Source: Fidelibacterota bacterium
GTDB taxonomy: Bacteria > Fidelibacterota > Marinisomatia > SCGC-AAA003-L08 > D37C17
Length of the DNA stretch: 36,741 bases
NCBI GenBank assembly: GCA_030747125.1
Contig: JASLLI010000007.1
Coordinates: 1-36,741, forward strand
Direction: 5' to 3'
A program made the position numbers and the translations under genes. Every line of letters begins with the position of its first letter. Position 1 is the stretch's first letter. A model generated the notes under the pieces. It searched no databases. It was not told the DNA's origin and saw only the letters and a list, made by a program, of their open reading frames with translations. Positions 18,631 to 32,484 of the stretch are shown here, one piece after another.

Positions 18631-19506
18631 ATGCAATATTCACGAAATATAATAACCATTCTGCTAACTGCTATTTTCCTGATTTCATGCGGAGGGAAGA
18701 AAGGAGATGTGGAAGCCACGCCTGATATTGCAGAAGAAACCATTACCATGGGAGACCATAACACCTATCCTGTGGAACAGACGGTAGTTGAAAGAAATGT
18801 GCAGGAAATTATTGAAGGGTTGAATATGGATATTAAAAAACTCCGTGCAGAATTGGACTATCAAAATGAAAATCTGAGTAAACTGGAAGCCCAATCCCAG
18901 ATTTGGGCAAATCCTTTTGCTATTTACAATAAAGAAATTGTTTTAGATAACGGGAGTTCTATTTTTGGTAAAATCGTTTACCAGGATCAGGATGTAATGA
19001 AGGTAGAAACTCTTATAGGTCAACTCATCATTGATAGAAATACCATCATCAGAGTGGTTAATCAGGTGAGCGCCTATGGTAGTTTTGAAAATACTAAGTC
19101 AAATGATGCTGCCTTAGCGACAGGTGATAAAGAAGACCCATCGGGAATAAACCTGATTCAAAAAAGGACAAAATCCCTCTCTGCAAATTTGGTGTTGGTG
19201 GGAGACATCTCCGAAGAAAAGGACGCATCCGGGAATACTATATTGACAGGTGAAATCAAAAATGTAGGCAATAAGAGGGCAGATTTTGCTAAAATTATTT
19301 TTACCTTCCGACTCAATTGGCAGGGGGATACAAAAAACCTCACTGCCTTCATAAATGGTGTGACCAATACTTTTGATACGGGGATTTCATCCGACAATAG
19401 TATTCTTCCTCATGCAGTGGGGAATTTTGAATTGGTTATTCCACGGTCATTTGGCACCTTTATCGGCTATAGCTATGATATTGACTGGAGCCAATATGAG
19501 GGCTGA
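18631..19506 (+). CDS. Lipoprotein with coiled coil, LSm/SH3-like segment and FxLYD-like domain
   Basis: A 291-residue exported lipoprotein: signal peptide with a lipobox ending LISC (Cys20) followed by GGKKGD. Residues 52-90 form a heptad-rich coiled coil. Residues 102-143 (GSSIFGKIVYQDQDVMKVETLIGQ and following) look like a small beta barrel of the kind found in envelope proteins. Residues 186-275 form a beta domain with LTGEIKNVGNKRADFAKI, resembling FxLYD domains. No enzyme motif is seen. It heads the operon that carries MotA, MotB, FliF-like and FliG-like genes, so it may be an outer-membrane-attached or periplasmic part of that machine. Function is inferred from context only. Confidence 0.75.
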   Translation: MQYSRNIITILLTAIFLISCGGKKGDVEATPDIAEETITMGDHNTYPVEQTVVERNVQEIIEGLNMDIKKLRAELDYQNENLSKLEAQSQIWANPFAIYNKEIVLDNGSSIFGKIVYQDQDVMKVETLIGQLIIDRNTIIRVVNQVSAYGSFENTKSNDAALATGDKEDPSGINLIQKRTKSLSANLVLVGDISEEKDASGNTILTGEIKNVGNKRADFAKIIFTFRLNWQGDTKNLTAFINGVTNTFDTGISSDNSILPHAVGNFELVIPRSFGTFIGYSYDIDWSQYEG

Positions 19507-20128
19507 AGTCTTCTTAAAAGTGATTTTTGGTTTAGGCTTGTTTTGTCTGGTAAAAGCTGAAGGGAAGACGCTCTGGGATTTTGGGGTAATTATAAAAGAA
19601 GAACAGTCTCAATCATCCATTCAAAATACCAATGTGACAGATGACATCCCGGAAATCAAAGCACTCATTTCCGACCCCTTTGTGGCTCCGAGGAAATCAA
19701 CGGATGTGCAATTTAATCTGCCTGTTGAAATAGTGAATGCAATTCCGATTGTTACTGAAGATAATTTCCGTGAAGTGGAAAAATTTATTCAATGGCATTC
19801 GCTTCAGAAAAAATTTAATCACATTATCCAGTCACTTGAAAATAGCGATTTGACAGCCTTATCTCAAACCAATCGTGCTGAGATTCAATTCTGGATGGCA
19901 ACATCTTTCGTTGAAACAGGACAATTCGAACATGCTTTAACCTTTTCACATTGGGCAAATTCCAACAGAGGCTCGGACAGAGACTTGTTCCTCGCTGCAA
20001 AAATCTATGAAAAAACCGGTGATATGGAAAGAGCGCTGCACCAATACCGGAAACTCATGTCTCTATTCCCTGACAGCGATTATTATCACTCAGCAAAAAT
20101 TAAATCCAGAATTATCGCACGCAGCTAA
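19496..20128 (+). CDS. Periplasmic TPR-like protein
   Basis: A 210-residue protein starting at ATG 19496, which overlaps the lipoprotein gene by 11 bp and has GGAG 5 bp upstream; an in-frame start at 19373 would lie deep in that gene. Residues 1-21 form a signal peptide (hydrophobic FLKVIFGLGLFCLV, then KA at the likely cleavage site). Residues 25-90 are low in structure. Residues 92-205 are helical, with TPR-type pairs: AEIQFWMATSFVETGQFEHA and LFLAAKIYEKTGDMERALHQ, the latter close to consensus. Such repeats mediate protein contacts. A role as adaptor between the outer-membrane protein and the motor is inference. Confidence 0.7.
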   Translation: MRAEVFLKVIFGLGLFCLVKAEGKTLWDFGVIIKEEQSQSSIQNTNVTDDIPEIKALISDPFVAPRKSTDVQFNLPVEIVNAIPIVTEDNFREVEKFIQWHSLQKKFNHIIQSLENSDLTALSQTNRAEIQFWMATSFVETGQFEHALTFSHWANSNRGSDRDLFLAAKIYEKTGDMERALHQYRKLMSLFPDSDYYHSAKIKSRIIARS

Positions 20129-20131
20129 AGA

Positions 20132-21472
20132 ATGACCAAACCCGGAATTTTATTTCTACTTGTCTTGGTTATTGGATGGGAGCCGGCTGAGGCAAATTCC
20201 AGAATTTCTTACTCCCGCCCGGGGAATATGATCCGTATTCCCAGCGTTGATCCTTCCATGAACAATAAACTACTGGAAATCAATGTGTCCTCAGAGTACC
20301 TGTCATCCTCACAAAGCAATGCAGGCTTTGCAGTAAATGCCATGTCGCAAAACGGATATTTGTATGGCATTTCCATGGTTAATCCTGTCAACCCTGCCAA
20401 TTCGGTGGAACTGGGCCTCCATGTTCAGCGCAACCTGTTGGAATATGGAAATGTTAATCTGGATGTAGGTATTCATGATTTACTATTCCGTTCTGGCAGC
20501 GACTCCAGTGACGGGTTGGACACACGGGGAATTTCTCTATTCGGTGTACTCTCCAGCGAGAAGCGATTTTCTGATTTTGCCATAGCAACCCACTTAGGGT
20601 TCGGGTCCGGAAAAATAAATGAAGATTCTCATTTGTTTGCGGAAAACCCAGGTCAAAACCTGGGAGTCTTTCTTGGATTCAAATTTACTACTCCTCTTCT
20701 TAAAAAAAATGGAGGACTGAGTTTTTTAACAGAATTTGATGGTACAGGGTTAAATCTTGGTCTAAACATTCCCATTTTTAATTCTTATCATATTAATTTT
20801 GGTATTACTCATTTCGAAAATTTTGGTAATTTTGCCACTGAAGACCGAACTATAACAGAATGGGAAGCCCTAAAAGGGAATGCTCCATCTGTCAATTTTG
20901 GTGTGAGTATGAATATTCCGCGGACTTTATCAGCAGAAGATGTATTGGAAGAAGAACCACGCATTGGTGATGGCATTTATGCTGAAACGGATTCATCAAT
21001 TTTGTATTATGAACCCATTTGTGTTGAAGTGGTTGAAACATTAAGAGACTCCATCAGAGTTAATCAAAATATTATTGAAAATTTAAAGGCACACAATAAT
21101 ATGCTTCTTCATTCTGAAGCGATATTGGCAGATTCCACAGAAAAAAGTTTGTTTCGTGAGCAGACGAGTCAACTAAACCAAAATAAAGCAATGCGTCATT
21201 TATCCAGATCGTTGCGGTTTTTTTACTCTGAACGATACCGAGATGCTCTGTCAGAAGTGAATCTGGCGATTGAACTGAATCCCAATTTAGCCATTGCTTA
21301 CGGGCGCAGGGGATCAATTTATTATAAACTGGGGGATGCACGCAGGGCTACTTTAAACTGGAATGTGGCACTGCAGTTAGATCCCGAATTTACAGAAATT
21401 TACGACATACTGAAGGCAGCAGAAGAGAACCGCCTTCAGCCAGTTGAAATAGGCAAGAAAACAGGAGATTAA
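20132..21472 (+). CDS. Outer-membrane barrel-like protein with C-terminal TPRs
   Basis: A 446-residue protein with a signal peptide (MTKPGILFLLVLVIGWEPAEA). Residues 25-262 alternate short amphipathic strands with Gly/Asn turns (for example GYLYGISMVNP, LGVFLGFKFTTPL, GLNLGLNIPIF, APSVNFGVSMNIP), which fits a small outer-membrane beta barrel. Residues 297-350 are helical and may form a coiled coil. Residues 353-420 hold two tetratricopeptide repeats, the second GRRGSIYYKLGDARRATLNW. It starts 3 bp after the TPR gene and ends 3 bp before motA. The barrel call is from pattern, not homology. Likely the outer-membrane face of the motor system. Confidence 0.65.
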   Translation: MTKPGILFLLVLVIGWEPAEANSRISYSRPGNMIRIPSVDPSMNNKLLEINVSSEYLSSSQSNAGFAVNAMSQNGYLYGISMVNPVNPANSVELGLHVQRNLLEYGNVNLDVGIHDLLFRSGSDSSDGLDTRGISLFGVLSSEKRFSDFAIATHLGFGSGKINEDSHLFAENPGQNLGVFLGFKFTTPLLKKNGGLSFLTEFDGTGLNLGLNIPIFNSYHINFGITHFENFGNFATEDRTITEWEALKGNAPSVNFGVSMNIPRTLSAEDVLEEEPRIGDGIYAETDSSILYYEPICVEVVETLRDSIRVNQNIIENLKAHNNMLLHSEAILADSTEKSLFREQTSQLNQNKAMRHLSRSLRFFYSERYRDALSEVNLAIELNPNLAIAYGRRGSIYYKLGDARRATLNWNVALQLDPEFTEIYDILKAAEENRLQPVEIGKKTGD

Positions 21473-21475
21473 TGT

Positions 21476-22288
21476 ATGAATTTGGGAACTATAATTGGAT
21501 TAATTTTAGGTCTTGTGCTTATGGGTGCTGCATCTTTTTTAGCTTCTGTAGGAGCAAATGTTCCTATGGGTGCACTCGTAGATCCCGTTAGTTTTTTAAT
21601 CGTAGTTGGTGGCTCAATTGCAGCCACAGCTATTGCCTTCCCACTTGAGGATGTTTTGGCTGCATTTGGTGGGTTTGGAAAAGTTTTCGGTACCCAAGGA
21701 TTTACTTTTAAAGATGTGGTAATGGATTATGTAAATTTAGCGGAACAGGCAAGAAAAGGAGAACTAGCGAAAGCTATTGAGGAAACACCAGAGCATATGC
21801 CATTTAGACTTGGAACGATAAAAGGTGGGTTACAAATGATTATTGATGGTTATTCTCGTGATGATATTCGTGAAATATTAGAAAATCAAGAAGAATTTCG
21901 AGCCGTAAGAGAAATAAAGAAGGCAAATGCTATGGCAAAAATGGGAGAATATGCTCCTGCATTTGGCATGATAGGTACACTTATTGGACTAGTATTTATG
22001 CTGGGATCAATGGCAAATCCTCCTGAACCGGGAGTTGACCCTGCTGCTAAATTAGGTGGCTCCATGGCTGTGGCACTCATAACTACCCTCTATGGTGCGT
22101 TCTTTGCTTTCTTCTTTTTCGGACCCTTTTCAGATCAGTTGAAATATGAAAATGAAGATAAGAAAATTGAGTCAGCCATCCATCTGGAGGGTATTCTGCT
22201 TCTCCATGCAAAGACCCATCCCATCATGGTGAGAGATAAACTAAACGCCTTTTTAGCCCGAAAAGACCGCCTTTCTGATGAGGGATAA
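21476..22288 (+). CDS. motA: MotA-type stator protein
   Basis: A 270-residue inner-membrane protein of the flagellar MotA/PomA branch, clearly longer than ExbB/TolQ. Four helices lie near residues 4-24, 35-56, 158-178 and 195-217. The large cytoplasmic loop has AEQARKGELAKAIEE (89-103), the region whose charged residues face FliG in flagellar motors. Helix 3 carries APAFGMIGTLIGLVFML with the conserved Pro, and helix 4 MAVALITTLYGAFFA. AGGAG lies 8 bp before the ATG. Known role: pentamer around a MotB dimer, forming an ion channel that drives rotation. Next to MotB, FliF-like and FliG-like genes but no flagellum genes in this window. Confidence 0.92.
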   Translation: MNLGTIIGLILGLVLMGAASFLASVGANVPMGALVDPVSFLIVVGGSIAATAIAFPLEDVLAAFGGFGKVFGTQGFTFKDVVMDYVNLAEQARKGELAKAIEETPEHMPFRLGTIKGGLQMIIDGYSRDDIREILENQEEFRAVREIKKANAMAKMGEYAPAFGMIGTLIGLVFMLGSMANPPEPGVDPAAKLGGSMAVALITTLYGAFFAFFFFGPFSDQLKYENEDKKIESAIHLEGILLLHAKTHPIMVRDKLNAFLARKDRLSDEG

Positions 22289-22293
22289 GCTAA

Positions 22294-23277
22294 GTGGCTA
22301 AACAAAAATGTCCTGAATGTCCTCCTGAAGGACTCCCCGGATATATGGGAACTATGGCAGATATGTTTACGCTGCTCTTTGCGTTTTTCGTTCTTATGTT
22401 CTCTCTTGCAACCATGGACCCGGCCAAATTAGACGCTCTTGGCGGAGATAAAGCAGGTGCCGCTGATGCCAAAGAAGCAAAGGAAGCAGTTGAAGAAATT
22501 AAAAAGGAAATGCAGGAACTGAAAGAAAACGGCATTACTGAAATAAACGGCAAACCTATTGAAGAGTATGCGGACAGCCTCATTGAACAGAAAATGAAAG
22601 AGACTATTCCGCCTCCTAAATTGGCGGAGGTTCGCAAAGATGTAGCTGAAATCATTGAGGACATGGAATTAGACACTACTGCAAATCTTTCCATGCGGGA
22701 TCAGAGAGGAATTGCTTTCGAGTTAAACGGAGACATCTGTTTTAAGGCACTATCTGCAGAAATGCAGCCCGAACTTATGCACTTTTTAGATGCTGCTGCT
22801 GATAGTTTTCTGGTTAATCCCAATGATAAGCGGCAGGTAATTGTTGAGGGTCATACGGATAATTGGCCTATCCCCAAAAAGTTTAAGGATATATTTCCCA
22901 CAAACTGGGAATTGTCAACGGCAAGAGCTTCTGCTGTAGTAAATTACTTAATTGAAAAGGGTGTAGATGCTTCCCGGTTGGTTGCTCATGGCTATGCGGA
23001 GCGTTGGCCAGCAGACCTTACCTGGACTGATATGCGTAAGGGTTATGTGGAAGAACAGAAAGGAACAAAAAAGATTGATCCCAGAACCGGGCAGGCATCC
23101 TATGAGGGCGATATTGGCAGGTCTGATGTGAAGAAACAACGCATATCTATACCCACTATGATTGATTCATTAAATTCTACCATGGAATTGCGGAGAAAAA
23201 ACAGGCGTATTAAAATTATATTTACCTATAATAATTATGTTGATGGTTCAGATCCATGGGTACCGCCAAAAAATTAG
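22294..23277 (+). CDS. motB: MotB-type stator protein with OmpA domain and an insertion
   Basis: A 327-residue protein starting at GTG 22294, 5 bp after motA. CPECPPEGLPGYMGTMADMF resembles the start of PomB/MotB; Asp23 in the helix MADMFTLLFAFFVLMFS is the ion-carrying residue. Residues 44-130 form a charged, partly coiled plug and linker. The OmpA-type peptidoglycan-binding domain begins near 140 and has VEGHTDN (184-190), NWELSTARASAVVNYLI and LVAHGYAERWP. Between that motif and the closing RRKNRRIKIIF (300-310) lies about 60 extra residues (240-299), where MotB usually has 10-15. A Cys-x-x-Cys pair (6-9) sits on the cytoplasmic side. Confidence 0.92.
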   Translation: MAKQKCPECPPEGLPGYMGTMADMFTLLFAFFVLMFSLATMDPAKLDALGGDKAGAADAKEAKEAVEEIKKEMQELKENGITEINGKPIEEYADSLIEQKMKETIPPPKLAEVRKDVAEIIEDMELDTTANLSMRDQRGIAFELNGDICFKALSAEMQPELMHFLDAAADSFLVNPNDKRQVIVEGHTDNWPIPKKFKDIFPTNWELSTARASAVVNYLIEKGVDASRLVAHGYAERWPADLTWTDMRKGYVEEQKGTKKIDPRTGQASYEGDIGRSDVKKQRISIPTMIDSLNSTMELRRKNRRIKIIFTYNNYVDGSDPWVPPKN

Positions 23278-23344
23278 AAGCATTTCATTTTTAAGATGAA
23301 GATGAATCCATTAAATTTACAATGCCGTAAACAGGAGCAAAATT

Positions 23345-24679
23345 ATGACCAATAAAAAAGGTCGGTATTTCTTACTTATTGCTATTTTCACTCTGCTTTG
23401 GAACCAGCAGACCAATTACCTTGCACAGAAAATAGCCATCGAAAATTCTTACAGGGATAAGGTGAACTCCGCTGTTTCCCGCATATTGGGACAGGAAAAA
23501 TTTCTCGTTATTGTAAATGTGGAATTTTCCACTATGGGAGGCACACTGAAAAAGGGAGGTACAACAGGAGAACCCAAAGGCAATACCTATACACCTGTAC
23601 CCGGCATACCCACCTTTCCATCCTCAAAAGGAAAGTCTGGCACTTCAACGACAGGAAGCAAAACTCTCTCAGCCAATGACTATAATATTGGAAGAGTGGA
23701 AGTCACCGTTGGCATTGATGAAACTATCGTCACCGGTTCTGTTAAGCAGGAAATTAAACAGGTAGTTGCCAGAGTTATTCCTGAAACAGCGGATTGTGAA
23801 GACTGTATCAAAATTGAAGCCATGGAGTTTCAAAAAAGCAAGAAAGATAAGAAGATTGATGAACTTGTTGAAAAGATAGAAAAACTTGAATCTGCTAAGA
23901 GAAAAGCAGATATTTCTGCGGATTCCATAAGACTTATAGATTTAACAAAACAGTTAGAAGAAGCTAATACAATTAAACAGACCTGGGAAACTATGGCAAA
24001 AGCCCGAGAGCTTCAACAGATGAAACAGGACTCCATTCGCTTTGAAAATCTTGTTAGAGCTGAAAGGGAGCGCAAGGTTCAGGACTCCATTAAATTTGTG
24101 AATACGGAAGATAGATTAGAAAGGGTAATTGAAAGTAAAATAAAATCTGACTCTACAATCATAAGAGAAACTATGGATATTTTGCGTCAGACTACCGGAA
24201 CAGGGGAAGAAAAGGAGAAGTCCATTTTAGGAATGGATATTGGTGGAGGCGGTTCCGGTATTATGAGTTCGGTTATTTTCATTCTATTAATTGTGGCGCT
24301 CATGATTGTTACCTTTTTAGCTGCCAATAATAAAAAGCCTAAAACAGTATATTTAAAACCTAAGGGGAAAGACAAAGAACCAAAAAAGAAAGAAAAAAAA
24401 GATAAGAAAGAATCAAAGGAGAAAGACAAAAAATCCAAAAACGGTTCTGATGAACCACCCACAGAAGAAGCGCAAACCACCCAGCCTTCACCTGAGGCGG
24501 CTCCACCACCCCCGAGGCCGGATGAGGACGCTCTGCGCTCTGAAATTAAATCACTTCGCCAAACAGCAGTTTCACTCACAGTGGGGGAAAAAGAGGGAGC
24601 ATCTGCCCTTATAAAAGAGTGGTTATCAGATAACCCCAACAAATCTGATGAGGGCAGTGAAGAAGAAGGAGAAGAATAA
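23345..24679 (+). CDS. Shortened FliF-like membrane ring protein with FliG-binding tail
   Basis: A 444-residue protein; AGGAG lies 7 bp before the ATG. An N-terminal hydrophobic segment (8-20) is a signal or anchor. Residues 35-63 (YRDKVNSAVSRILGQEKFLV) and 115-162 (RVEVTVGIDETIV ... EAMEF) match the two halves of the FliF RBM3 domain, with a Gly/Thr/Ser loop (64-112) in place of the beta-collar. Residues 165-290 are coiled coil, 305-327 a membrane helix, 328-395 a Lys/Glu then Pro-rich cytoplasmic linker. The end, ALRSEIKSLRQTAVSL with LIKEWLSDN (396-430), matches the FliF tail that binds FliG. RBM1 and RBM2 are missing. Normal FliF is about 550 residues. The tail and the FliG-like neighbour support each other. 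Confidence 0.78.
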   Translation: MTNKKGRYFLLIAIFTLLWNQQTNYLAQKIAIENSYRDKVNSAVSRILGQEKFLVIVNVEFSTMGGTLKKGGTTGEPKGNTYTPVPGIPTFPSSKGKSGTSTTGSKTLSANDYNIGRVEVTVGIDETIVTGSVKQEIKQVVARVIPETADCEDCIKIEAMEFQKSKKDKKIDELVEKIEKLESAKRKADISADSIRLIDLTKQLEEANTIKQTWETMAKARELQQMKQDSIRFENLVRAERERKVQDSIKFVNTEDRLERVIESKIKSDSTIIRETMDILRQTTGTGEEKEKSILGMDIGGGGSGIMSSVIFILLIVALMIVTFLAANNKKPKTVYLKPKGKDKEPKKKEKKDKKESKEKDKKSKNGSDEPPTEEAQTTQPSPEAAPPPPRPDEDALRSEIKSLRQTAVSLTVGEKEGASALIKEWLSDNPNKSDEGSEEEGEE

Positions 24680-24685
24680 ATTACC

Positions 24686-25636
24686 ATGAAAACGCTTGAA
24701 GATTTAACAGGATACGATAAAGCAGCCATTATCTTTGATATTTTGGGGGATTCCCTGGCCCTGAATATGTTTAAAGATATACCCGAACCTGAGTTTTATG
24801 AGCTTCGTAATCATGCTAAAAACCTTCGTAATGATGTTCCTACTTCTGTAAAAAAGGAGGTGTTGGAGGATTATTATTTCAAAATGCTTTCTGGGGAAAA
24901 GTATAAGGAAGAATCCACCAGTGAAAACATGTTTGAATTTTTAGAAGTTCTGGATGACGAGCAGTTATATGCATTGTTGTCCCCTGAAAAACCGCGTGTA
25001 ATTGCTCTTGCGTTAGAACAATTGGATAATGAAAAGCGCATGACCTTTCTATCAAAAGTGGATACTGAAAAACAGAATAAAATTGTCATAGCAACAGGGG
25101 AGTTAAATGATATTCCCCTTGAGGCTATTATTTTCACTGCTAAGGAATTAAAGAAAAAAACAGCTTTTCTTCCGGAATCGGTCCAATTTTCCAGAGGAGG
25201 CGGCAGGTCTGTCTCTGATATGCTTGGGAAAATGCCTGAAGATGAAGCAATGCAGTATTTAGATCAGATGAAAATTAACAATCCTGATTTACTGACCGAG
25301 GTGAAAAAATACTTTTTACTTTTTGATGACATCATGAATATGCCGGAAGATCTGGCTGCAACTTTCTGGGGAGACCCTGATATTGATCTGGAAGTTATGG
25401 CAAAGTCATTGAAGGAATTTGAAGCAGAAACAGTGGAAAAAATTCAAGGATATCTTCCTGGGAAAAAGCAAGCCATGTTCACCCCCCATGAAGGAGCTCT
25501 TTCCAAACGGGAGATTGATGAAGCTAAAGGTGCCATAAAAAATATCCTGCAAGGCAAAATAGATTCCGGCGACATTAATATAGAAGATGTGTTGGCTTCC
25601 CCTGAGATTGAAGAGGAAGAAGGAGCAGAAAATTAA
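24686..25636 (+). CDS. FliG-like motor switch protein
   Basis: A 316-residue cytoplasmic protein, close to flagellar FliG in length. N domain (1-70): LTGYDKAAIIFDILGDSLAL, as in LTGxxKAAILLxSLG, then VPTSVKKEVLEDYY. Middle domain (85-160): LYALLSPEKPRVIALALEQL, where EKPR replaces the usual EHPQ. C domain (165-300): RSVSDMLGKMPEDEA, EVKKYFLLFDDIM matching the torque-helix start FxFxDI, and DEAKGAIKNILQGKIDSGDI at the end. Parts of the charged torque helix look changed (PEDLAATFWGDPD). FliG links the FliF ring to stators. It starts 6 bp after the FliF-like gene and ends 3 bp from convergent uvrA. The similarity is remote but co-linear through all three domains. Confidence 0.8.
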   Translation: MKTLEDLTGYDKAAIIFDILGDSLALNMFKDIPEPEFYELRNHAKNLRNDVPTSVKKEVLEDYYFKMLSGEKYKEESTSENMFEFLEVLDDEQLYALLSPEKPRVIALALEQLDNEKRMTFLSKVDTEKQNKIVIATGELNDIPLEAIIFTAKELKKKTAFLPESVQFSRGGGRSVSDMLGKMPEDEAMQYLDQMKINNPDLLTEVKKYFLLFDDIMNMPEDLAATFWGDPDIDLEVMAKSLKEFEAETVEKIQGYLPGKKQAMFTPHEGALSKREIDEAKGAIKNILQGKIDSGDINIEDVLASPEIEEEEGAEN

Positions 25637-28702: not shown

Positions 28703-30286
28703 ATGAAACTTATTAAAATACTACCCTATCTCATCTTTGGACTCGTGCTGCTCTGGGCAGTAAAATCTGATACAGCCAGAGATCAGTTTCAGAAAATGAA
28801 AACTCTAACACAGATCATCCGTTTAGTGAGCGAAAACTATGTGGAAGATGTTGACATGAACGACATTCTGGAAGGCGCCATAATAGGAATGTTGGATAAA
28901 CTGGATCCTCATTCCAGTTATATTTCTGAAGAACAATTTGAACTTGTGAATGAGCAATTCGGTGGCGAGTTTGAAGGAATTGGAATTGAGTTCAATATTT
29001 TAGAGGGATACATAACTGTCATTTCTCCCATCCCTGGTACACCCTCAGACAGAGCAGGGTTGCAATCCGGTGATAAGATTATCCGCATAAATGAGGAGTC
29101 TGCATATAAAATCACACAGAAGGAGGTGTTAGAAAAGCTGCGTGGGCCAAAGGGTACTAAAGTGGATGTGACAATTTCCCGCCCGGGACTGGAAGAAGAA
29201 TTTCAGGTAACCCTGGTAAGAGACAAGATTCCCATTGTATCTGTAATGGCGGCTTTTATGGTGGATGACGAAACGGGATATATTAAGGTGAATCGCTTTG
29301 CGAAGACCACCACGGAAGAAATAAAGGAAGCCTTATCCGAACTTGAGGATGAAGGGATGGAACAGCTCCTGTTAGATTTTCGAAATAACGGTGGTGGTAT
29401 GATGGATCAGGCTGTAGAAATAGTGGATATGTTCATTTCTTCAAGAGATACCATACTCTTTACAAAGGGAAAAATCCCCGGCTCTTCGGAAGTTTTTCGA
29501 GCCAGAAAAAACCGTAAGGATAAGAAATATCCTGTAATAACATTAATAAACAGAGGGTCAGCCAGTGCCAGTGAAATTGTATCAGGTGCATTTCAGGATT
29601 TAGACAGGGGTTTAGTAGTTGGAGAAACCAGCTTCGGAAAAGGATTAGTCCAAAGGCAATACCCCCTGAGAGACGGCTCTGCCGCACGCATTACTATTGC
29701 TCGCTATTATACTCCCACAGGCAGACTTATTCAACGACCCTATGATGATGTAGCAGACTACTATTCTGATTTGGGCAGAGATAATCGGGAGGCAACGGAT
29801 TCTACACTGGCTGAAAAACCTAAATTCACTACAAAAAACGGGAGGACAGTCTATGGTGGCGGGGGGATTACCCCTGATATTTTCTCCGAACTTGATTTAG
29901 ACCTGTCTGAAAGCTCCAGAGAAATTCTCTCTCATCCTGACAGACTTACCTTTAAATATGCAGGTGAATTAAAAGAAGAAATACAAAATAGGTTTGAATC
30001 TTTTGAGGATTTCACTCACCAATATCAGTTGAAAGATAAAGGGAAAGCCAAGTTTTATAATTGGCTTCAAAATCAGGAAATTGAATTTTCTGAAGAAGAG
30101 TTAGATGAAAACTGGGCATATATTGAAAACAGGATTTTAGCCGAAGTGTCTTCTGGTATTTGGGGTAAGGAATTCCTGTTCAGGAAATTATTGGATGCAG
30201 ATAATCAGGCACAGGAAGCGTTGCTTCATTTTAATGAAGCCCGGCGGTTACTCAGTGATTTTAGTCAATACCCGGTAGGAGAGTGA
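28703..30286 (+). CDS. Carboxyl-terminal processing protease (S41)
   Basis: A 527-residue periplasmic serine protease with an N-terminal membrane anchor (residues 4-20). Order: N-terminal helical part with LDPHSSYIS (68-75), PDZ domain (about 88-172) with FEGIGIEF and AGLQSGDKIIRIN, then the S41 core: GYIKVNRFA, LLLDFRNNGGG, GSASASEIVSGAFQD with catalytic Ser288, and GETSFGKGLVQ with Lys313. A charged C-terminal tail of about 130 residues follows the core (GGGGITPDI). Such enzymes trim C-termini of envelope proteins or degrade misfolded ones. It precedes exbB by 126 bp on the same strand. Confidence 0.93.
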   Translation: MKLIKILPYLIFGLVLLWAVKSDTARDQFQKMKTLTQIIRLVSENYVEDVDMNDILEGAIIGMLDKLDPHSSYISEEQFELVNEQFGGEFEGIGIEFNILEGYITVISPIPGTPSDRAGLQSGDKIIRINEESAYKITQKEVLEKLRGPKGTKVDVTISRPGLEEEFQVTLVRDKIPIVSVMAAFMVDDETGYIKVNRFAKTTTEEIKEALSELEDEGMEQLLLDFRNNGGGMMDQAVEIVDMFISSRDTILFTKGKIPGSSEVFRARKNRKDKKYPVITLINRGSASASEIVSGAFQDLDRGLVVGETSFGKGLVQRQYPLRDGSAARITIARYYTPTGRLIQRPYDDVADYYSDLGRDNREATDSTLAEKPKFTTKNGRTVYGGGGITPDIFSELDLDLSESSREILSHPDRLTFKYAGELKEEIQNRFESFEDFTHQYQLKDKGKAKFYNWLQNQEIEFSEEELDENWAYIENRILAEVSSGIWGKEFLFRKLLDADNQAQEALLHFNEARRLLSDFSQYPVGE

Positions 30287-30412
30287 CAAAAACTGAAGGT
30301 TATGACGATTTTATAAGAGTAAAATTTTCTTTATTGAAAAGATTAACTGACCTAATTTTACAGGCTTAAAATCAAGCCAAAATATTAATTATTACTAAAT
30401 AAGGACGAAAAA

Positions 30413-31021
30413 ATGGTTCAATTGTTTATTGATGGCGGCGGGTTTATGTGGCCTATCCTTTTTATATTCATCATTGGTTTTGTGTTCGTTATTGAACGCC
30501 TTTACCACCTTTTTAAAGGTTTATCAAGTAATGAAGAATTTGCCTATGAAATTGCAGATACGGTAAAAAATTCCGGAATGGATTCGGCAGTTTCAAAATG
30601 TGAAGGAGCACAGGGACCAGTAGCAAATCTCTGTCTGGCAGCATTGGATCGGGGCAACCTGGGTGCTGATGAGGCAGAACATGCGCTGGATCATTCCGGC
30701 TCTATCGAAATGGCATCCATGGAGAAAAACATGACCTGGATTTCCCTCTGCATAGCAACAGCTCCCATGTTGGGCTTTCTGGGGACGGTATGGGGAATGA
30801 TTCAGGCATTTAACGATATTAAAATGGCGAATGATATTTCTCCCGCGGTTGTTGCAGGTGGTATTTCAGTCGCACTTCTCACAACTGCATTCGGTTTGGT
30901 GGTAGCAGTGGTTCTACAAGTATTTCAAAATGCTGTTCTGTATATTATTGATAACCAGATTGTCACCTTGCAGAAGTCAACAACTGCTCTGCTTCATGCT
31001 ATTAAAGATTCAGAGAAATAA
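30413..31021 (+). CDS. exbB: ExbB/TolQ proton channel protein
   Basis: A 202-residue inner-membrane protein with three helices: 12-33 (FMWPILFIFIIGFVFVIERLY), about 105-130, and about 145-175. The conserved APMLGFLGTVWGMIQAF and ISVALLTTAFGLVVAV blocks are those of MotA/TolQ/ExbB channels, and the size is that of ExbB. AAGGA stands 7 bp before the ATG. It forms a proton channel with ExbD and energises TonB. First gene of exbB-exbD-exbD-tonB. The short length and topology separate it from the MotA upstream. Confidence 0.9.
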   Translation: MVQLFIDGGGFMWPILFIFIIGFVFVIERLYHLFKGLSSNEEFAYEIADTVKNSGMDSAVSKCEGAQGPVANLCLAALDRGNLGADEAEHALDHSGSIEMASMEKNMTWISLCIATAPMLGFLGTVWGMIQAFNDIKMANDISPAVVAGGISVALLTTAFGLVVAVVLQVFQNAVLYIIDNQIVTLQKSTTALLHAIKDSEK

Positions 31022-31039
31022 CGAGTACAGGCAGCAAAC

Positions 31040-31441
31040 ATGATTAAAAAAGAAAGAAGACCTATGCAGGAAATCAATTCCTCCTCTATGGCGGATATTG
31101 CATTTCTTCTACTCGTCTTTTTTCTGGTTACCACTACCATATCTATGGATAAGGGTATCAGCCTGGTACTACCCTCTGAAGGAAATGAGCTGGAAGTAAA
31201 CCGCAAGAACATTGTTAATATTTTGATGAATGAGTCGGGTAAGGTTTTGTTGGATGATATCCCTACAAAAGTAAATGCCATAAAAAACATCATAGAAAAG
31301 AGATTAGCTGCCAACCCGAATTTAATTTTCTCCGTGCAAACACATCCATTGACTAAATACCAGGACTATCTCAGAGTACTTGATCAATTAAAAGAGGGTA
31401 ATGCCAGCAAAATTTCTATTGCTAATCCTCCTGCTTTCTAA
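31040..31441 (+). CDS. exbD: ExbD/TolR family protein, copy 1
   Basis: A 133-residue protein with one membrane helix (16-36). SMADIAFLLLVFFLVTTTI holds the proton-binding Asp19. The remainder is a small periplasmic domain, ending in the ExbD-type DYLRVLDQLKEGNASKISIA. It partners ExbB. It is followed 3 bp later by a second exbD, so the channel may carry a heterodimer of the two. The typical Bacteroidota ExbD pair has the same arrangement. Confidence 0.88.
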   Translation: MIKKERRPMQEINSSSMADIAFLLLVFFLVTTTISMDKGISLVLPSEGNELEVNRKNIVNILMNESGKVLLDDIPTKVNAIKNIIEKRLAANPNLIFSVQTHPLTKYQDYLRVLDQLKEGNASKISIANPPAF

Positions 31442-31444
31442 TCC

Positions 31445-31855
31445 ATGAAGATTGCCAGAAAAACCAATACCAGTCGTGAAATATCCACAGCATCCCTACC
31501 TGATATTATTTTCATGCTCCTCATTTTCTTCATGGTTACCACAGTCATGCGTGAATATGAGGGATTGGATGTGGTTATGCCTCGCGCAAAAATGATTGAA
31601 AAACTTGAAAGTAAACGGCATACTTCCTACATCTGGGCAACAAAAGATGGTCTTGTTTCTGTGGATGACCGCATTATTCACATCAATGATTTATCAGGAT
31701 TGATGTACTCTAAGATTGCCAAAGATCCCAAGATTACCGTTTCATTGAAATCGGATGAAAAGGCTACAATGAAGCTCATCACCGATATTCATACCCAGTT
31801 AAGAAACGCCAATGCCTTAAAGCTCAGTTATTCAGCCTTAACTAAAACCAACTGA
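31445..31855 (+). CDS. exbD: ExbD/TolR family protein, copy 2
   Basis: A 136-residue paralogue of the preceding protein. SLPDIIFMLLIFFMVTTVM carries Asp20 in the single helix. The periplasmic part (HTSYIWATKDGLVSVDDRIIHINDL) differs clearly from copy 1, so the two are not a recent duplication. It is 3 bp behind copy 1 and 2 bp before tonB. Confidence 0.88.
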   Translation: MKIARKTNTSREISTASLPDIIFMLLIFFMVTTVMREYEGLDVVMPRAKMIEKLESKRHTSYIWATKDGLVSVDDRIIHINDLSGLMYSKIAKDPKITVSLKSDEKATMKLITDIHTQLRNANALKLSYSALTKTN

Positions 31856-31857
31856 TT

Positions 31858-32484
31858 ATGCTACGGATTGACCCCCTATTAGTGCATTACCCTGTGAGAA
31901 TTCGTGAAGTCACCATTGGTGTGATCCTCTTTCTTACCTTGGTATTTTATTTTTTTCCCCGGTTTTTAGGGGAAGGGGAAAGGGTGGATTTTTCCATTGT
32001 TGAGGAAATTGAAACCTTTGACATCCCTCAGACAGAGCAAATTAAAATCCCTGAACCACCTGCGCGCCCTTCCGTACCCGTTGCCTCGGAAGATGAATTT
32101 TTTGATGAAGATATAACCATCGAAGATACAGACTTTGATGATTTCGAAGACTGGGATGCGCCTCCATCCCGCCCTTCTGAGGGACCAAATGTAAAGTTTA
32201 TTCCATATGACAAACCTCCCAAACCCAAAATCCCCATTCGACCTGTATACCCAGAAATTGCTCAGGAAGCAGGTATTGAAGGAACGGTATACATTCAGTT
32301 CTTTATAGATGAAAAAGGGAATGTCACCGAAGCCTGGGTACAGAAGGGAATACCCAATACGGGATTAAATGAAGCTGCTCTTGAAGCCGTTAAGCGCTCA
32401 AGATGGAAACCCGCACAACAGCGCGACAAGAAAGTTGGCGTATGGCAGACAGTACCGGTAAAATTTGAATTAACATCAAATTAG
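31858..32484 (+). CDS. tonB: TonB energy transducer
   Basis: A 208-residue protein with one N-terminal membrane helix (17-35), an acidic and Pro-rich periplasmic linker (45-120, with PEPPARPSVPVASEDEFF and PPKPKIPIRP), and a TonB C-terminal domain (125-206): PVYPEIAQEAGIEGTVYIQF, LNEAALEAVKRSRWKPA and TVPVKFEL. It carries energy from ExbB-ExbD to TonB-dependent outer-membrane receptors; no such receptor is in the window. The acidic linker is unlike the Lys-Pro/Glu-Pro repeat of enterobacterial TonB but common in FCB bacteria. Confidence 0.9.
   Translation: MLRIDPLLVHYPVRIREVTIGVILFLTLVFYFFPRFLGEGERVDFSIVEEIETFDIPQTEQIKIPEPPARPSVPVASEDEFFDEDITIEDTDFDDFEDWDAPPSRPSEGPNVKFIPYDKPPKPKIPIRPVYPEIAQEAGIEGTVYIQFFIDEKGNVTEAWVQKGIPNTGLNEAALEAVKRSRWKPAQQRDKKVGVWQTVPVKFELTSN

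Follow-up and report, generated by a model that had tools for sequence, protein, structure and literature searches.

A cluster of seven genes in a Fidelibacterota genome is likely to encode a rotary machine of its own, distinct from the flagellum, that extends through the cell envelope, with an inferred mechanism in which a FliG-FliF rotor driven by MotAB acts on the outer membrane. At the level of sequence, the parts of this putative machine are shown to be a MotA-MotB pair with intact channel and peptidoglycan-binding residues, a FliG, a reduced FliF and the products of three envelope genes; that these parts form a ring, rotate and act on the outer membrane is an inference made in the absence of structure, interaction or phenotype data.

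Organisation of the seven-gene cluster

The window (the whole stretch of DNA that was analysed, 36,741 nt) contains the cluster at positions 18631-25636, with all seven genes on the + strand and all frames open and intact:

18631..19506, + strand: gene 1, lipoprotein of FxLYD type (lipobox LISC/GG at Cys20; helix, small beta domain and FxLYD-type domain)
19496..20128, + strand: gene 2, predicted secreted periplasmic TPR protein (TPR in Pfam; start corrected to ATG 19496)
20132..21472, + strand: gene 3, predicted outer-membrane beta-barrel with helix and TPR (AlphaFold2 model, PDB fold matches, TPR in Pfam)
21476..22288, + strand: gene 4, MotA, flagellar-type stator A subunit (Pfam/NCBIfam, conserved residues)
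22294..23277, + strand: gene 5, MotB, stator B subunit with plug and OmpA-type peptidoglycan-binding domain (Pfam/NCBIfam, conserved residues)
23345..24679, + strand: gene 6, reduced FliF (orthologue Pfam matches, hhalign, AlphaFold2 model, fold matches)
24686..25636, + strand: gene 7, FliG with N, middle and C domains (Pfam/NCBIfam, FliG tree, residues)

The intergenic gaps are, in order, -11, 3, 3, 5, 67 and 6 bp. The 11 bp overlap of gene 2 with gene 1 results from the corrected start of gene 2, which we placed at ATG 19496, where the signal peptide MRAEVFLKVIFGLGLFCLVKA begins, and not at the listed TTG 19373. Frames and profiles agree with an earlier, sequence-only reading of this DNA, which had described seven same-strand genes with tiny gaps that encode a lipoprotein, a TPR protein, a barrel/TPR protein, MotA, MotB, a reduced FliF and a FliG. 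All seven genes are under purifying selection, with dN/dS ratios of 0.03-0.36 in three close pairs. Further along the window, downstream of uvrA, the region 28703-32484 contains ordinary neighbours, namely a gene for an S41 (CtpA-like) protease followed by ExbB, ExbD, ExbD and TonB genes.

A flagellar-type stator and a distinct FliG

In the Pfam/NCBIfam searches MotA matched PF01618 (6e-22), MotP (4e-45) and PomA (4e-42), and MotB matched the OmpA (4e-15) and MotB_plug (9e-12) families. The equivalents of E. coli MotB residues D32, F41, P52, D197 and R217 were found in 51/51 relatives, as were those of P173, P222 and T209 of MotA, with the MotA E98 equivalent kept in 42/51 and replaced by Ala in the window genus. 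Stators fall into a flagellar (FIT) and a non-flagellar (GIT) clade in a 2025 survey (PMC12505986). Features of the flagellar type are present here: the ion-channel Asp, the plug region and the OmpA-type wall-binding domain.

The N, middle and C domains of FliG all exceeded the curated Pfam cut-offs (FliG_N 7e-7, FliG_M 7e-7, FliG_C 3e-10), and TIGR00207 was matched at 3e-19. Phylogenetic analysis placed the cluster FliGs in a single clade (support 100/99) separate from all flagellar FliGs, that of E. coli included, with a branching order that broadly matches the families. On the torque helix, K264 is kept in 46/53 members and the R281 equivalent is K or R in 53/53, and the equivalents of D288/D289 are acidic only in deep lineages; together with the loss of MotA E98 in the window genus, this suggests that any torque transfer works through an interface that was rebuilt in the window's class.

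A reduced FliF with a long helix

The FliF of the window, when searched alone, matched no relevant Pfam family, with FliF_C (PF08345) remaining below threshold, but the latter was matched by 17/38 orthologues (best 6e-13). The RBM1/RBM2 region (PF01514) was found in none of the 38 aligned FliF members and in none of six deep members; the canonical FliF of a relative, used as control, matched both PF08345 and PF01514 (9e-57), and hence the scan does detect true FliF. Alignment of the family with two canonical FliFs by hhalign covered FliF residues 236-394, corresponding to RBM3 (E 2e-6, probability 89.5%), and a fold search of the PDB gave FliF ring structures as its best 15 matches, all at weak E-values (2e-3 to 2e-2).

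The AlphaFold2 model of FliF had a mean pLDDT of 68, with values >80 across most of RBM3 and ~95 in a long helix. It is ordered as the RBM3 strands plus helix, a helix of 114 residues (167-280), a transmembrane helix (307-328), a region of disorder and, in the predicted cytoplasmic tail, a pair of helices (394-428). Apart from RBM3 and the long helix, the model has low confidence, and a prediction of the monomer does not settle which way the helix points. Between RBM3 and the transmembrane helix, a rough count based on motifs gave distances from ~50 residues (family f25) to >200 (family f30). In the window FliF and in the deep members, the N-terminus reads like a signal peptide and not like the first transmembrane helix, from which we infer that FliF probably crosses the membrane only once and that RBM3 stands away from it. 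The tail motif ends in Trp426, which is invariant in 38/38 aligned members and also occurs in the deep-lineage members listed; as far as a motif can tell, with no binding data available, it is similar to the tail by which E. coli FliF binds FliG.

Two genomes also contain a natural fusion of FliF(RBM3), a transmembrane helix and FliG, of 509-533 aa (L170:5580-9149 in G205 and L056:2923-6132 in G023), followed by two coiled-coil/TPR proteins, one of them a lipoprotein, with no MotAB nearby. These loci look like a second, further reduced rotor system that exists beside the main cluster in the same genomes. The two fusion proteins form long branches close to the split in the FliG tree, and their placement is thus unsure.

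Predicted envelope-side proteins

The periplasm or outer membrane is the inferred location of 3/7 gene products, those of genes 1-3. The FxLYD-type domain of gene 1 was recognised by the domain scan in some relatives, and TPRs were detected in genes 2 and 3 by the Pfam scan. Most cluster-bearing genomes, including that of the window, contain at least one additional, weaker match to the gene 1 profile, which suggests paralogous lipoproteins elsewhere in the genome. Gene 2 is present in two copies in deep classes and absent from a few genera. For gene 3, previously read as a barrel-like TPR protein, the TPRs were retained and the barrel could be refined to a predicted real one: the AlphaFold2 model (pLDDT 78) consists of a barrel of ~12 strands (residues ~46-263), a 77-residue helix (289-365) and TPRs (369-431), with matches in the PDB fold search to the outer-membrane barrels OmpG, NanC and KdgM and to TPR proteins.

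Distribution in the Fidelibacterota

The profile of gene 1, the cluster gene most diagnostic of the phylum, matched 189/245 genomes of the phylum. Subtraction of 25 weak matches (E 1e-10 to 1e-18, treated as paralogues) and a single partial match left strong matches in ~163/245 genomes, representing 27/31 families by hand count. Among the best 80 of 148 gene 1 loci in named genomes, nearly all were titled Candidatus Neomarinimicrobiota or Marinimicrobia, with a few generic names. The complete seven-gene order was present in 29 loci including the window, five further loci lacked only gene 2, and an eight-gene form with two copies of gene 2 was found in 11 loci from other classes, with genome G062 having an intact eight-gene cluster. 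Collecting genomes with the same synteny had been proposed earlier as a check, and the recurrence of the order across the phylum, in 28 other loci plus the 11 eight-gene loci, places the cluster far beyond chance. The only isolate, Fidelibacter multiformis IA91, described as non-motile (PMC11652737), is apparently a carrier.

The cluster is absent from family f12 (genomes of ~2 Mb) and from the streamlined family f6, and is therefore not essential to the phylum. In f6, the cluster-free genomes of genus g22 (G041, G045, G047, G051 and G055) are 0.8-1.0 Mb in size and 93-98% complete. FliG_C was also matched, weakly and only in part (E ~4e-4), in f12 and in two genomes of f29, by proteins of 458-465 aa that were judged from their length to be MgtE-like. 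Genes outside the operon that recur next to it in some deep classes were not retained as cluster parts, as they vary between classes; a protein of 376-384 aa, all of one family, adjoins the cluster upstream in several deep-branching families (L167, L174, L175, L177 and L179).

Relation to the flagellum

The genome of the window (Candidatus Marinimicrobia / Fidelibacterota, 1.71 Mb, 96% complete) encodes only one FliG. We found no match in it to the export gate protein FlhA, which was detected in flagellated relatives and four control genomes, and none to the switch proteins FliM/FliN or the rod/hook family (PF00460), again with positive controls; these negatives exclude a hidden flagellum elsewhere in the genome. 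Most other cluster carriers likewise lack FlhA, FliM/FliN and rod/hook proteins with the controls positive. The sequence-only reading had proposed a flagellum-derived motor core joined to envelope proteins rather than a flagellum, and had named two findings that would refute it, a complete flagellar gene set elsewhere in the genome with no FliF or FliG of its own, and a lack of profile similarity of the last two genes to FliF and FliG. Neither was borne out, since the searches for FlhA, FliM/FliN and rod/hook were negative and both genes do show the similarity, and the proposal is supported. Flagellated relatives keep the cluster as a separate second system. Cluster and complete flagellar set coexist in f4 genomes and in G194, G200 and G218, most genomes have only the cluster, G029 and G033 have only the flagellum, and f6 and f12 have neither.

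The homology of the parts to flagellar parts, and the lack of flagella in most carriers, would also be expected if the cluster were the decaying relic of a lost flagellum. We rule this out and leave it next to no probability, as the cluster occurs alongside complete flagella, its FliG forms a clade distinct from flagellar FliGs, and the purifying selection acts on every gene. Moreover, the cluster FliF has an architecture of its own, the gene order is fixed across the phylum, and we saw neither nesting of the cluster FliGs inside the flagellar FliGs of Fidelibacterota nor widespread frameshifts.

Proposed machine and its possible output

In the dedicated envelope-spanning machine that we propose, MotB would anchor to peptidoglycan, ion flow would turn MotA, and MotA would engage a FliG ring held by the FliF tail. 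The RBM3 ring of FliF would be raised above the inner membrane on the helical stalk of ~114 residues (~17 nm) and would turn in the periplasm, where contact with the lipoprotein and with the TPR tails of gene 3 could pass torque on to the outer membrane. Absence of RBM1/RBM2, FlhA, FliM/FliN and rod implies that there is no flagellum-like export and no direction switching via CheY and FliM.

If the machine itself is accepted, its likeliest output is the driving or loading of outer-membrane complexes, which would either energise the type IX translocon or move surface proteins for gliding; we cannot separate these two, and on that premise we consider the chances of this output to be evenly balanced. 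As a surface gliding motor, the rotor would move the barrel protein and attached adhesins along a surface. The operon does encode an outer-membrane barrel and a lipoprotein, Myxococcus (AglRQS) and Bacteroidota (GldLM) use ion-driven stators for gliding, carriers have many surface proteins sorted by the type IX secretion system (T9SS), and the cluster was lost in the genome-streamlined f6, but there is no adhesin gene in the operon, and the description of the apparent carrier IA91 as non-motile counts mildly against gliding, which may never have been assayed. Taken by itself, gliding remains unlikely, and equally unlikely is the second option, in which the cluster energises type IX secretion and takes over from PorLM-PorKN, the corresponding ring of Bacteroidota. 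The T9SS of non-gliding Bacteroidota is energised by a rotating ring whose lipoprotein PorK is linked to the outer-membrane barrel PorG (PMC12635249), which makes the parallel with the cluster attractive. SprA_N was found in 67/68 genomes and T9SS sorting domains in 31/31 Fidelibacterota genomes, with 15-81 sorting domains in the carriers tested versus 2-4 in the cluster-free f6. GldM (0/38 genomes) and GldN (0/31) were not detected, in searches that lacked a working positive control. However, the cluster-free genus g33 of f12 keeps SprA and 23-44 cargo proteins, and no conserved cysteine is available in the cluster for a disulfide like that of PorG-PorK. A strict link between cluster and T9SS is not supported by co-occurrence, as SprA is present with and without the cluster.

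A still weaker candidate is envelope upkeep of the Tol-Pal kind during growth or division, with the stator pulling or turning a connector in the periplasm by which the outer membrane is held to the wall. The TolB N-domain had no match in the genome of the window (controls positive) and was found, weakly, in only 6/34 Fidelibacterota genomes; classical Tol-Pal thus seems to be missing from most of the phylum. This scarcity, the broad conservation of the cluster over metabolically diverse lineages and its set of TPR, lipoprotein and OmpA-domain proteins would suit such a role, but action of the TolQRA type needs no FliG rotor, f6 and f12 live without both systems, and TolB is missing irrespective of the cluster, which speaks against a link between the cluster and TolB loss.

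Comparison with known systems

The cluster shares with the bacterial flagellar motor homologous MotA, MotB, FliG and FliF, the latter with RBM3 and the putative FliG-binding tail, and the channel and wall-binding residues are invariant. It differs by the absence of FliM/FliN, FlhA, rod and hook, by a FliF in which RBM1/RBM2 are missing and a long helix separates RBM3 from the transmembrane helix, and by the fixed presence of outer-membrane barrel, TPR and lipoprotein genes. As far as we know, neither FliG nor a rotor of FliF and FliG has been described outside flagella. The type III injectisome likewise draws on only part of the flagellar genes, including those for ring-building motif proteins, but keeps export without stator or FliG, whereas the cluster keeps stator and FliG without export. 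The proposed machine would work in a similar way to the Bacteroidota system of GldLM/PorLM, the GldKN/PorKN ring and the PorG/SprF barrels, in which an ion-driven motor moves a periplasmic ring associated with a lipoprotein and outer-membrane barrels; in contrast, the cluster has a flagellar-type stator with a FliG/FliF rotor and no conserved cysteine link, and GldM and GldN went undetected alongside it (with the lack of a positive control noted above). In the gliding machine AglRQS/Glt of Myxococcus, too, a stator drives a structure that crosses the envelope and includes TPR and outer-membrane parts, as proposed for the cluster, but we know of no FliG/FliF rotor in it. AglRS belongs to the non-flagellar stator clade (PMC12505986). 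The anti-phage system Zorya (ZorAB) also uses an ion-driven, stator-type AB complex outside the flagellum, but MotA of the cluster gave only a weak ZorA2 match (E 0.012, far below the cut-off), and no Zorya partner proteins were among the Pfam/NCBIfam matches of the cluster proteins.

Our searches of the open-access literature found no description of a non-flagellar FliG/FliF/MotAB system or of motility genes in this phylum, and as most subscription papers and preprints were not covered, novelty is probable and not proven. What is probably new is the machine, a stator and rotor without export plus an outer-membrane module, and not the parts, which are known. Judged from gene content alone, flagellar-type stators are paired with FliG and FliF in genomes without flagella.

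Implications

A further, tentative and rather doubtful scenario is that the torque and export halves of the motor separated no later than at the root of the Fidelibacterota, with the stalked FliF ring now powering outer-membrane protein movement or the T9SS in the role of PorLM-PorKN. The injectisome retained the export half, and if the scenario is true, this torque-half machine would mirror it. The phylum consists mostly of uncultured ocean and subsurface bacteria, and the cluster suggests a source of envelope force in this abundant marine and subsurface group, in which the Gld motor was not found by our searches and TolB is mostly missing. Since the one cultured isolate is apparently a carrier, the machine is open to imaging and purification now. 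Distributed over the whole phylum, this putative machine of flagellar-type stator and rotor lacks any export apparatus; it shows that the torque half can exist by itself, a point of relevance to the evolutionary assembly of flagella.
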